Below, one piece after another: positions 2,514-8,729 of a stretch of 8,860 bases of DNA. The translations under genes and the position numbers were made by a program. Within the stretch, counting starts at the first letter, position 1; each line of letters starts with the position of its first letter. The stretch is taken from contig JAGUYV010000011.1 of the NCBI GenBank assembly GCA_020061125.1, positions 1-8,860 of the forward strand, in the 5' to 3' direction. Origin of the DNA: a bacterium (GTDB lineage: Bacteria > UBP15 > UBA6099 > DSWB01). The notes under the pieces were generated by a model that worked only from the letters and a program-made list of their open reading frames with translations, was not told the origin of the DNA and searched no databases.

Positions 2514-2816
2514 TTCATTCCTCGGCTTTCTTCGTATTTGGATACACAGCGCCGGCGTCACGCTAATCGGCATGACCCATATTTTTATTATCTGGCCAAA
2601 ACGCATCAAAACCCCGGAATGTGGTATACTTGACAACAGGACAAAAAGAACCGTGTACACGGCATAAAACGGAGACACCGTGAGTACCTGTCGCGACAAT
2701 GTCGCGGCCGGAAACCAGCGCTGCACCGCATGAGGACACAACCCGAATGCGTTTTTCAGAATCGTAAATCTGTGCCCGGAGCCGGACAAAAGCTGCTTGA
2801 ATGGAAGAGGGAGGCA
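2514..2816. other. Intergenic stretch without a recognisable gene
   Basis: About 300 bases between the hairpin and the left inverted repeat. Both strands were read and no frame gives a recognisable protein. A plus frame is open from 2634 to a stop at 2817-2819, but its start is unclear and its composition is unconvincing. A 17-codon GTG reading frame (2680-2733) follows a GGAG but resembles nothing known. The main content is the promoter/operator-like patch at 2625-2698. The stretch may be the scar of a gene lost when the neighbouring block arrived. Confidence 0.5.
2625..2698 (+). promoter_or_regulatory. Promoter/operator-like patch with two perfect palindromes
   Basis: TATACT (2625-2630, 5/6 match to a -10 box) overlaps TTGACA (2630-2635, a perfect -35 box). 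Fifteen bases further on is the perfect 12-bp palindrome CCGTGTACACGG (2651-2662), and then the perfect palindrome TGTCGCGACA (2689-2698). The layout resembles a small autoregulated promoter such as those of repressor or toxin-antitoxin loci, but no such gene follows. The -35 has only a poor -10 (TGTACA, inside the palindrome, 18-bp spacer), and no good -35 was found for TATACT. Confidence 0.3.
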
Positions 2817-2844
2817 TAATTAAGTATGGTGTCCCCAAAACTCC
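2817..2844 (+). repeat. Left copy of inverted repeat (GTATGGTGTCCCC type)
   Basis: This 28-bp sequence matches the reverse complement of 5330-5356 with one extra A (in TAATTAAG versus TAATTAG) and one substitution (AAAACTCC versus ATAACTCC). Its core is GTATGGTGTCCCC (2824-2836). It starts 8 bp past the end of the minus-strand lipoprotein gene (stop at 2854-2852). Short dispersed repeats of this look are, from memory, often seen near IS200-like/REP-associated transposase genes, but no transposase is present here. Confidence 0.8.
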
Positions 2845-2864
2845 CCGCCATTCATGGCCCGGGG
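2843..2864 (-). terminator. Possible terminator hairpin over the stop of the propeller lipoprotein gene
   Basis: CCCCG-CCA (2843-2850) pairs with TGG-CGGGG (2855-2857 and 2860-2864), with a 4-nt loop and a two-base bulge. The stem spans the stop codon. Read on the minus strand it is followed by AGTTTTGGGG, a short T-run supplied by the repeat. Weak evidence; it may be chance. Confidence 0.25.
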
Positions 2865-4654
2865 TGATAGTCCGGGTTGCTTCCCCCAAGGCCATAACTC
2901 ATTGACGCGCTACCGTCTGAATACATGACATGCAGATAATTATTCTGGTCTGATAAAAAAATAAATTGCCCGTCACTGCTCGCGGTTATGTTGCCTTTAA
3001 TATCTGTCAGTCCCGCCGGCATGGGAATTTCCGCCACATTCGTGCCATCGGCATTCATAACAAAGATGCCACGCGTTCGATCCCCAATGTAATTATGTGT
3101 TTCGTAAATAATACGGTTGTCATCAAGCCACGCGAAGCCTGTTTCCGTAGTCGTGTTATTCGTTAGTCTTAATATATTGCTCCCGTCAGAATTCATGACG
3201 ACGATTTCGTAATTGTCTCCTCCATAATTTTTTGCAAATGCGATCTTTGTGCCGTCGGGTGATATTTCCGCAAACAATCCGCTTGTGTTTGTGAAAGTCA
3301 ATCGTTGTTCATTTGACCCATTGATGTTGACTTTGTAATAATCGAGTGAACCGGAGTAATATTTGTATTTTAAAACTTCATTATTATCAAACCAATCCGA
3401 AGGTCCATATTGCATGCTCGTCGTGGTTTGTCCGGTGCCATCCGAATTGATTAAAGCCATGAATGAATCAGGTCCTGTCGGGCCTGTCGAATATGCAATT
3501 TTTGTTCCGTCTGGAGACCAGTGGCCATCTCTTTCGCCAGTTTCATTTTCTGTCAAGTGGAACAAATTGCCGCCATCGGCATCCATTGTGCATAATTCCG
3601 CATATGCGGTGCTTTTATAGCTGCAACCAAAAACAAGTTTTCCAGATAGTTTTGCGATATCAATAACAACCGTGTCCGATGCGCTCTGCAGAAAACCGTC
3701 ATTGACCTTTAATGAAAACTCGTAAGTTCCCTCCTGGATTGGAACAAAGGAAGCCGTAGCGGAGTTAGGGTTTATCAATGATACTACAGGCCCGTTTGTT
3801 TGCGCCCATTGATATGATAGCATGTCGCCATTCGGATCGGCGCTGGCTGTTCCATCCAGCGATATCGTAATGTCGGCAGGCGTATAAACATATTCTGAAC
3901 CATTCCATCCCTCATATATATATTTTGTTCCCGCAAAGCCCTTGAAATCATCTCCTGCATTTGCATCTGGCGCCTGATTCCCCGCCGGGTTTAATGAAAA
4001 TGTTACAGTTTCTCTCTGCCCTGAAATTACGGTCAATATTTGCTCTGTCACAGCGTCATAACCCGTCTGCAATATTGAAACTGTGTGTTCGCCGGCGGCA
4101 ATTCCATCGAATGCATATGACAATCCGGCCGGAATCGCAATCCCGGTGCTCTGCCCATCTATAAAAACCGTGCCCCCGCTGACATTGGCATATACCATGA
4201 TTGAACCTGACGAAATCGGAGACAACGCTATTCCGGTGCTTCCTCCAACGGCAGTAGTGCTGTCCGGCTTCACGGCAACGCTTGTCTGATAATTGTTGAA
4301 ACCGATATAAGACACCGTCAAAGAACATGTGCCGGACGGCAATGACGTAATTTTGAAATAACCGGACGCGATAGTTGAAGTGTCTTTCCTAACGCTCCCG
4401 CAGGCAACCACCACACTTGCGCCCTGTACGGGCTTCATACCTGCCGGCGCCGTTTTTGCCTCTCTGGCTCCACTGCCGACCGGGGCATATACATAACCGT
4501 CAATAGCGCCATATTGCGGAGGCGCAACCACTCCACTGCCGCCTCCACCGCCTCCGCAGGCTGATATATTGACAAGAAATAAACATATGTGAACAACCTT
4601 AACCATACTCCAAATGCGGTCTTGTATGATTGAATGATATTTCTTTGGCCTCAT
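2852..4654 (-). CDS. Lipoprotein with CarboxypepD_reg-like, PEGA, PKD-like and TolB-like beta-propeller domains
   Basis: 600 residues from ATG 4654, chosen because GGTGA lies 6 nt upstream. TTG 4666 and GTG 4663 are in frame upstream, and ATG 4606 (MVKVVHICLF) would give a tidier signal peptide but has GGAG only one base away. The signal ends in a lipobox-like NISAC with Cys33, then six Gly. Order: carboxypeptidase-regulatory-like domain (about 50-126), PEGA (about 150-222), PKD/Ig-like domain (about 228-335, SLDGTASADPNGD and KVNDG), and a TolB/PD40-type propeller (about 337-595). Propeller blades show the typical motifs MDADGGN, HWSPDGTKIAY, EISPDGTKIAF, VVMNSDGSN and VMNADGTN. Such propellers bind proteins or small ligands at the periplasmic face or cell surface; the ligand is unknown. 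The start lies 5 nt after the stop of the dockerin-like frame, so the two were cotranscribed. Base composition is clearly AT-richer than the DUF1566 lipoprotein gene, suggesting separate origin. Confidence 0.88.
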   Translation of the reverse strand: MRPKKYHSIIQDRIWSMVKVVHICLFLVNISACGGGGGGSGVVAPPQYGAIDGYVYAPVGSGAREAKTAPAGMKPVQGASVVVACGSVRKDTSTIASGYFKITSLPSGTCSLTVSYIGFNNYQTSVAVKPDSTTAVGGSTGIALSPISSGSIMVYANVSGGTVFIDGQSTGIAIPAGLSYAFDGIAAGEHTVSILQTGYDAVTEQILTVISGQRETVTFSLNPAGNQAPDANAGDDFKGFAGTKYIYEGWNGSEYVYTPADITISLDGTASADPNGDMLSYQWAQTNGPVVSLINPNSATASFVPIQEGTYEFSLKVNDGFLQSASDTVVIDIAKLSGKLVFGCSYKSTAYAELCTMDADGGNLFHLTENETGERDGHWSPDGTKIAYSTGPTGPDSFMALINSDGTGQTTTSMQYGPSDWFDNNEVLKYKYYSGSLDYYKVNINGSNEQRLTFTNTSGLFAEISPDGTKIAFAKNYGGDNYEIVVMNSDGSNILRLTNNTTTETGFAWLDDNRIIYETHNYIGDRTRGIFVMNADGTNVAEIPMPAGLTDIKGNITASSDGQFIFLSDQNNYLHVMYSDGSASMSYGLGGSNPDYHPGP

Positions 4655-4659
4655 AATTT

Positions 4660-5316
4660 TCACCAATTACAATCCGGTATTTCAGTTGTAGCAATGTCAT
4701 CACAACAATCACCATAATTGCCGAAAGGTGTGGTTACCGTTGAAAAATCATCATCGCACACATGACAAATCGCAAGAACATCTTGAAATCTACTAATCGC
4801 TTCACATCTAGTTTTACCCCGTGCGAAGCGAATCCAATCTTCGAGGGACAAATCGTTGTCGCGAAACCAGTTGACGCGCTCGAAGCCATCGCGGTCGTTG
4901 CGCCCGTGTCCCTGATTGTACCATGTCCCCAACAATACGATATCCGCAATATCTATGACATTGTCGAAGTTCAGGTCGGCGTCGGCCATGCGGATAAGGT
5001 TTCCGGTGGCGTAGTGCCGCAGGCAGTTGGCCTGGCAGGGGGCTGTGCCGTTTGTCTGGCACCAGGTGAATCCGGCGGGATTGGCTTTGGCGGTTTCGTA
5101 AAAAGATGGTTCGTAAAAGCACGTGTCCGCATTGGGCGGATCGCCCGGCGATGAGGGCGCCGGGCCGATGAGGTTGACGCCGAGTGATTGCGTTGCCACC
5201 ATATAATAATCTTTGTAGCTCACACGCTGGTCCCCGTCAATATCCGCGCGTACCCCCCCTGTGCCCCATTCCTGGTTTCCGTATTGCGCGCCGAACGCGA
5301 CGAAGTCCTCAAGGAG
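4660..5316 (-). pseudogene. Dockerin/EF-hand-like protein, 5'-truncated at the inverted repeat
   Basis: The frame is open from 5316 down to TGA 4662-4660 (218 codons). It has no plausible start at its beginning: the repeat at 5313 supplies the first codons and an in-frame TAA (5319-5317). A GTG at 5223 would give 187 residues, but the 31 codons before it clearly belong to the same protein (EDFVAFGAQYGNQEW, then RADIDGDQRVSYKD) and contain the first Ca-binding loop, so that start would cut a domain. Dockerin-like loops: DIDGDQRVSYKD, DLNFDNVIDIAD (D1, N3, D5, D9, D12 all present), and a degenerate one at RDNDLSLED. Eleven cysteines sit between and after the loops. This arrangement is usual at the C-terminus of large secreted proteins, so the missing N-terminal part probably held the main function. 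GC falls towards the 3' end. The remnant may still be transcribed with the lipoprotein gene. Confidence 0.72.
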
Positions 5317-5356
5317 TTATGGGGACACCGGAGTTATGGGGACACCATACTAATTA
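5313..5356 (-). repeat. Right copy of the inverted repeat, with tandem 17-mer
   Basis: GGAGTTATGGGGACACC occurs twice head to tail (5313-5329 and 5330-5346) with no gap. The outer copy continues into ATACTAATTA, completing the match to the left repeat at 2817-2844 in inverted orientation. The tandem copy exists only on this side. The repeat starts exactly where the GC-rich dockerin-like coding sequence stops. Confidence 0.85.
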
Positions 5357-5594
5357 GAAATCCGTAAATAGTAAAGAGATAACAAAAGAGATATTTTATC
5401 GCTTGCTTTTAGACAATGGGAAACTTGGGACGCTTACCGTTAAGGAAGTGTTTGAATGAAGGTTAGAGGCCAGTAACCATGGAATGGAGACATTTGAAAT
5501 TTGATATGGAATGTAAAATGTTAATGTATACTTATATGCTGTTCTCGTTGCCCGCGAACCTGGATGGCATTCCGGAACTGGAGAGGGCTGTGAA
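5357..5594. other. AT-rich spacer upstream of the membrane glycosyltransferase-like gene
   Basis: No complete gene was found on either strand. A plus frame from 5361 to TGA 5457-5459 reads like coding sequence (32 codons, containing LLLDNGKLGTLTVKEVFE) but has no start codon and begins just beyond the repeat, so it may be a gene tail. Towards the end are a possible promoter (TTGATA 5501-5506 and TATACT 5527-5532, an over-long 20-bp spacer) and the GGAGAGG ribosome binding site at 5580-5586. Confidence 0.4.
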
Positions 5595-7682: not shown

Positions 7683-8729
7683 TCACTCCGGCTTTATGAA
7701 AATATCACCCCGGAAACTGTTTTCCGTGCAATCCTTGCACATGCCGATGGACTCGGGATCCTCGGCGAGTTTTCTTCTGAATGAACGGTACTTCTCGTTG
7801 TTCCATACGGCCGCAAATCCGCCCCTGCCGTGGATGTTGCCCATGACATGGCGGAATCCGGAATCAATGCAGCAAGGGACGACATCCCCGTTCGTGGTGA
7901 TGACCGAGCTTCGCCAGGGCCTGTTGCAATACAGTGCGGCCGGTGGGCCGTGCCCGTCCGCTCCGGCACATTGGAATTCCTTCCGGGCTGGCAATAATTC
8001 ACCGGCATTTTCCGGGTTGTGATATGTTACCAGCCTGCGGAATGTGATCCTGTCGACCCCGAGCTGCGCCCCGAGTTTCTTGAATGCCTGAATTTCGTTT
8101 TCATTCTCTTTTGTGAGGATCATTTTCAGCTCCACCACCGGTGTGCGCGAGCGCAGCTTTTTCTTTTGTTCCATGAAATCCATTGTGTTGTCCGTGACGG
8201 TGCTAAAGTTTTCTTTTCCGCGGATTGCCCCGTATGTTACTGCGCGGGCGCCGTCCATGGAAATCACTAAATAACACAAGCCGCTGCTGATGAGGGATTC
8301 TGACATTTCCGCGCCGAGATTTTTGCCGTTCGTATGCATCACCGTCATGATCTTCTTGCCTGTTGCCATTCGGGCCATTGCGCCAATATTTTCGTTCAAT
8401 AATGGTTCGCCCCAGTCCCAGAGACTGAAGAAAATCGAGGTGGCGCATAATTCGTTGATGATAGCGGTGTAAGTCTCCATGTCCATGAAAGCAGGTTGCC
8501 GGGGAGCGGAACGCTGCAAGGCGCACATGGGGCATTTCATGTCACAGATTGCGGACGGTTCGACCATGAGCGCGAAAGGCAGCCCTTCCACGGTTTCCGC
8601 GCGCTTGCGCTCGGATTTGAGCACGCGGCACGCATTCATTATTTTTCTGTGTGAAAAAGAGGCTTTCATCGCCGAGGGCATTAATGAGAGAATGTCCGCC
8701 AGCCCGAATTCCGCGTTGAAGACCCTCAT
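7683..8729 (-). CDS. Radical SAM/SPASM domain protein
   Basis: 348 residues from ATG 8729. A TTG at 8822 is in frame but would overlap the preceding gene by 43 nt and add an unremarkable 31 residues, so ATG is preferred; its ribosome binding site is weak either way. The radical SAM cluster motif CDMKCPMC is seen (Cys62, Cys66, Cys69), which binds a [4Fe-4S] cluster and S-adenosylmethionine, followed by the GE motif WGEPLLN (about 106-112) and the strand YLVISMDG. The C-terminal SPASM region carries Cys268 (CNRPW), Cys286-Cys287 (VVPCC), Cys331 and Cys334 (CKDC), the usual ligands of an auxiliary cluster. SPASM enzymes modify peptides, proteins or small molecules; many relatives of this type lie in cell-surface polysaccharide loci. 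No precursor peptide gene was found next to it. The substrate cannot be read from the sequence; the family call is firm. Confidence 0.93.
   Translation of the reverse strand: MRVFNAEFGLADILSLMPSAMKASFSHRKIMNACRVLKSERKRAETVEGLPFALMVEPSAICDMKCPMCALQRSAPRQPAFMDMETYTAIINELCATSIFFSLWDWGEPLLNENIGAMARMATGKKIMTVMHTNGKNLGAEMSESLISSGLCYLVISMDGARAVTYGAIRGKENFSTVTDNTMDFMEQKKKLRSRTPVVELKMILTKENENEIQAFKKLGAQLGVDRITFRRLVTYHNPENAGELLPARKEFQCAGADGHGPPAALYCNRPWRSSVITTNGDVVPCCIDSGFRHVMGNIHGRGGFAAVWNNEKYRSFRRKLAEDPESIGMCKDCTENSFRGDIFIKPE

Follow-up and report, generated by a model that had tools for sequence, protein, structure and literature searches.

The window analysed here is a DNA stretch of 8,860 nucleotides that represents an entire contig (C409) of a bacterial genome assembled to 4.1 Mb in 513 contigs with 79% completeness. 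It contains a block of 2.5 kb that is delimited by two short repeats in inverted orientation and encodes a putative lipoprotein together with the remainder of a dockerin-like secreted protein. The following features were assigned:

2730–2816, plus strand: left arm, beyond the block; remnant of a transposase 3′ region from a TIRtron-derived copy, assigned by alignment to a relic in contig C302
2817–2844, minus strand: left repeat (28 bp), copy of a terminal repeat (TIR) of the right-end (RE) type with its outer side (GGAGTT) toward the block
2852–4666, minus strand: lipoprotein gene with CarboxypepD_reg, PEGA, PKD and TolB-like propeller regions (Pfam)
4660–5316, minus strand: gene for a dockerin/EF-hand-like secreted protein, located upstream of the lipoprotein gene, 5′ part missing (stop-to-stop frame 4663–5316)
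5313–5329, plus strand: perfect tandem 17-bp partial TIR copy, a stutter of the outer end
5330–5356/5357, plus strand: right repeat (about 27 bp), left-end-like TIR copy (R type) with its outer side toward the block
5358–5405, plus strand: R-type arm outside the block, conserved with contigs C23 and C70

The left repeat reads GGAGTTTTGGGGACACCATACTTAATTA on the minus strand and the right one GGAGTTATGGGGACACCATACTAATTAG on the plus strand. A single T/A substitution and a single T indel distinguish the two, exactly as the preliminary description of this DNA had reported, and the motif GGGGACAC is present in both of them as well as in homologous loci. In shuffled windows the observed count of the 28-mer (up to 3 mismatches) was reached in none of 200 shuffles, and the same applies to the 13-mer core GGGGACACCATAC with two matches against 0.01 expected. 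Correctly described were also the location of all block genes (both main open reading frames) on the minus strand and the lack of a transposase in the window, although a Y1 gene is found elsewhere in this genome. The asserted difference in base composition holds for the left side only (48% GC in the block versus 64%): on the right side the GC content is 51%, and the change on the left occurs near position 2500 and does not coincide with the repeat.

A genome-wide count and the search for a Y1 transposase elsewhere, both proposed in the preliminary description, gave positive results. The 17-mer of the repeat occurs in 19 copies (up to 2 mismatches) versus one for the reversed control, and the 20-mer GGGGACACCATRCTWAWTWA in 31 copies (up to 3 mismatches, the weakest of them doubtful) versus none, so that the family comprises about 25 dispersed copies. 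One closely fitting Y1_Tnp gene is located in an intact locus on contig C460 (positions 581–1249), with plus-oriented TIR copies directly upstream and minus-oriented copies starting at the stop codon of the gene; the coding sequence finishes (...GPKGKREA) in what is also the tail of the downstream TIR. Its product matches the Pfam family Y1_Tnp with 46.9 bits and reveals the HUH signature as NHIHL and the tyrosine in RYVELNPV. Three further Y1 genes (on contigs C84, C79 and C406) were considered as sources of the R-type arm and rejected as their flanks carry no such repeat. On contig C291 (L078:3486–4911) an IS4-like transposon, which encodes a transposase of 401 amino acids (judged by sequence only), is located precisely where a right end and a left end of the TIR family abut; a perfect inverted repeat, about 34 bp long, encloses it.

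The window repeats are identified as TIRs of a TIRtron/TIRYT element, that is, of a RAYT-like Y1/HUH transposase with TIRs of the GGGGACAC type. Such elements were described by Di Nocera et al. 2013 with TIRs sharing GGGGWSAS (PMC3733652). In both cases a RAYT-related Y1/HUH tyrosine transposase lies between these TIRs at near-constant distance, and the TIRs form a moderately abundant, dispersed and often clustered family; in contrast to the described elements the window retains only two ends, in reversed order and without an intervening transposase. Of the 26 described TIRYTs 20 were assigned to TnpA_REP subclass 2.1 (RAYT group 1), which possesses GGGG[AT][CG]A[CG] repeats instead of REP hairpins (PMC6006769). 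For the C-terminal helix-turn-helix extension of this subclass, Pfam gave no match in the C460 protein at an E-value of 0.1. With the REP/REPIN/REPtron systems the present one shares a related transposase (70.6 bits against NF047646, below the cut-off of 80) and the occurrence of repeats in inverted pairs, but the window repeat has neither the GTAG/GTGG foot nor a stable hairpin. Its classification as REP or REPIN was rejected with the missing GTAG foot and the folding of the window copies (−1.8 to −4.4 kcal/mol, z-scores −1.4 to −1.9), and that of the C460 gene as an IS200/IS605 insertion sequence with 18.5 bits for NF033573 against a curated cut-off of 55. The preliminary suggestion of an IS200-like or REP-associated system acting in trans was therefore right insofar as the repeats belong to a Y1 system encoded elsewhere, but the block as its mobilised cargo is not supported, given the reversed polarity of the ends.

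This polarity was deduced from 79 homologous loci of many phyla, with orientation counted on the 70 that have a recognisable core. Their general order is 5′-(GGAATT)GGGGACACCATACTTAATTA–transposase–TTAAGTATGGTGTCCCC(AATTCC)-3′, laid out as GGAATTCYGGGGACACCATACTTAATTA followed by TTGACA and the gene and then by TTAAGTATGGTGTCCCCGGAATT. A plus-oriented TIR is found upstream in 68 of the 70 loci (opposite orientation in one) and a minus-oriented TIR downstream in 47 (opposite in two); 45 of them, like C460, have both in the plus/minus order. Same-strand TIR copies at a distance of up to 60 bp occur in 23 of the 70 loci, in parallel to the stutter at 5313–5329. The boundaries can be read in two copies from one metagenome-assembled genome (MAG; L144:1142–1901 and L160, about 9940–10698), which are 92% identical over 760 bp. 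Identity begins exactly at AATTCCAGGGACAG (AATTC) and ends at CTGTCCCNGGAATTC (GAATT) whereas the flanks are unrelated, and thus the GGAATT side, or GGA(A/G)TT in general, is the outside of the element. The pairs L133/L147 (91%) and L105/L151 (86%) behave in the same way. This comparison provides clean TIRtron boundaries (AATTC...GAATT, about 760 bp), and the two copies in one MAG support the movement of TIRtrons as complete units, in contrast with REPtrons, which were reported not to appear to move as a unit (PMC6006769). In two loci (L015:1250–1300 and L105:10668–10700) an ATG supplied by the right-end TIR (ATG GTG TCC CC.) matches the frame of the open reading frame that follows, which means that an insertion can provide the adjacent gene with a new start codon.

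In the window the GGAGTT side of either repeat is turned toward the interior of the block. Since the external sides point inward, the block corresponds to flanking DNA between two decayed ends, and because the minus/plus order is unchanged by reverse complementation neither strand yields an element with the established polarity. A TIRtron, either with its transposase or with an internally deleted body, was rejected since the block contains no Y1 domain and its ends stand in reverse order. A non-autonomous TIR-bounded element (MITE or cargo) was dismissed for the inward direction of the external sides and for the presence of the gene pair in relatives that have no repeat.

On both sides the conservation with other copies runs outward from the block. 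Alignment of the left arm with the decayed transposase relic on C302 (L077) gives a score of 58 for the part left of the repeat, a value attained by none of 500 shuffles (mean 21). Positions 2730–2782 are common to the window and this relic, 47–49 bp at 2795–2842 are 91–92% identical to C460 and C302, and the reading KREA just before the left repeat, followed by a stop, agrees with the C-terminus of the C460 transposase. The right arm shares positions 5332–5405 with C23 and 5330–5387 with C70 (79–83% identity over 58–75 bp including the repeat) and shows no recognisable transposase remnant. Both elements lack their partner ends.

The stop codon of the lipoprotein gene lies 8 bp from the left repeat, and its product shares the terminal YHPGP motif with the lipoproteins of relatives, so that the 3′ end of the gene is intact. 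The dockerin-like frame, on the other side, opens only inside the right repeat; its 5′ part is absent beyond this repeat and was not found elsewhere in the assembly, a weak absence at 79% completeness. The nearest genomes available for comparison belong to the same taxonomic order, and in two of them (G003, contig C130; G004, contig C2) the dockerin–lipoprotein pair is present with identical order and orientation, with the dockerin-like gene – a frame of 372 amino acids in G003 – directly upstream of the lipoprotein gene. The 22-mer of the repeat (up to 2 mismatches) has no copy in the six genomes G001–G006, and within the operon loci of G003 and G004 no copy was detected even with up to 5 mismatches. 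The same gene order thus exists in relatives with no repeats, the very finding that the preliminary description had named as speaking against its proposal. As the homologous lipoprotein genes of G003 and G004 have 44–53% GC, the 48% of the block need no foreign origin. The two block genes are to be regarded as a native operon. In G004 the same operon is followed (L198:8271–9580) by an unrelated REPtron, whose RAYT gene at 8721–9266 is accompanied by GCGGCGATGAATCGCCGC repeats, and then by a second 3′ fragment of a lipoprotein gene. From this it seems that such elements accumulate at this gene family, which appears to be a place of rearrangements too. Additionally, a contig end of G003 (L199:2946–3071) repeats its own start, which suggests that the dockerin–lipoprotein pair is tandemly repeated there.

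The arrangement in the window is not unique. The genome contains seven blocks of 0.4–2.5 kb with minus/plus order versus a single plus/minus pair, which is the intact element. Several of these blocks carry AT-rich orphan genes (31–40% GC, flanks about 57–64%), and by our reading of the outer arms six of the seven are RE–cargo–LE and one is RE–cargo–RE. Many of the TIRs involved are at most about 700 bp away from a contig end, and breakage at repeated bodies therefore probably inflates the pattern. On contig C70 (L082:1–3350) two right-end and two left-end arms in tandem surround a 1.9-kb block, and this nested doublet is embedded in a second dispersed repeat family. Toxin- or immunity-related genes were seen directly beside right ends of TIRtrons in other loci, namely an orphan toxin end with a small gene (L125:10575–11470), an AHH fragment with an Imm11-like gene (L163:675–2073) and a CXXCG immunity-like gene (L015:1250–2038). 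A general association of TIRtrons with toxin/immunity cassettes, suggested by the cases L163, L125 and C460, was rejected because a Pfam tally of the 144 nearest open reading frames showed no enrichment over 71 frames located 6 kb away. It would be rather surprising if in this lineage the TIRYT ends around short, mostly AT-rich blocks with orphan or immunity genes (some of them fragments cut at the repeat) in RE–cargo–LE order reflected real capture or exchange at TIR junctions and not chance.

Most probably, the window thus contains one decayed end each of two TIRtrons with 2.5 kb of host DNA between them that is not a transposing unit; the lack of both partner ends, the right arm with no recognisable transposase remnant and the closer spacing of the minus/plus blocks than scattered solo ends would give count against this explanation. 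Several other scenarios have to be weighed against it. A non-autonomous cassette, in which the lipoprotein operon is moved in trans by the TIRYT via the inward-facing pair, could be invoked for the seven blocks, several of them AT-rich and with a single gene, and similar TIR-to-TIR intervals are found in other phyla (L133, L163, L088). Its polarity would be opposite to that of every element with readable boundaries, on whichever strand it is read, relatives carry its genes natively, the boundary cuts the upstream gene short and among the blocks compared none has a second copy, which makes this scenario very improbable. Very little probability is likewise left for a composite transposon, in which two complete TIRtrons flanked the operon and all was moved by the outermost ends. 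The RE–cargo–LE order of most blocks, with neighbours of the same direction, and the intact element beside such a block on C460 are in favour of it, but the window retains no outer ends, the operon is native and no duplicate of such a composite was found.

The right boundary could also be an assembly join or the scar of a deletion or recombination event involving dispersed TIR copies, by which the R-type arm would have come to abut the broken dockerin gene, with the left TIR as an independent insertion. In favour of this are the dockerin 5′ part, missing beyond the repeat and from the assembly, and the tandem 17-bp copies at the joint. Against this stand the weakness of that absence in an incomplete assembly and the length of the sequence shared at the joint: with only about 45 bp it falls short of the 97 bp by which the ends of C424 and C23 overlap, and hence a mis-join is unlikely. 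Altogether we consider a scar improbable. It is very unlikely that the sequence between the repeats represents a mobile gene cassette, and the preliminary view of a repeat-bounded element with lipoprotein cargo is not supported in light of the reversed polarity, the element sequence outside the block and the native operon inside it.

Under the two-TIRtron explanation, one TIRtron-derived copy would have settled just behind the stop codon of the ancestral lipoprotein gene and left the transposase 3′ relic. The end of a second element would have hit the dockerin-like gene upstream, coinciding with the loss of its 5′ part. Neighbouring DNA and the distal ends may have been lost later while the remaining ends decayed. 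We infer that TIRYT-mediated insertion, by itself or combined with deletion, placed both ends here and that they decayed afterwards, and that the block itself is immobile. The near-perfect inverted repeats that frame a gene block can be inside-out, i.e. the outer ends of two neighbouring elements, and this case corrects a natural misreading of repeat-bounded blocks.
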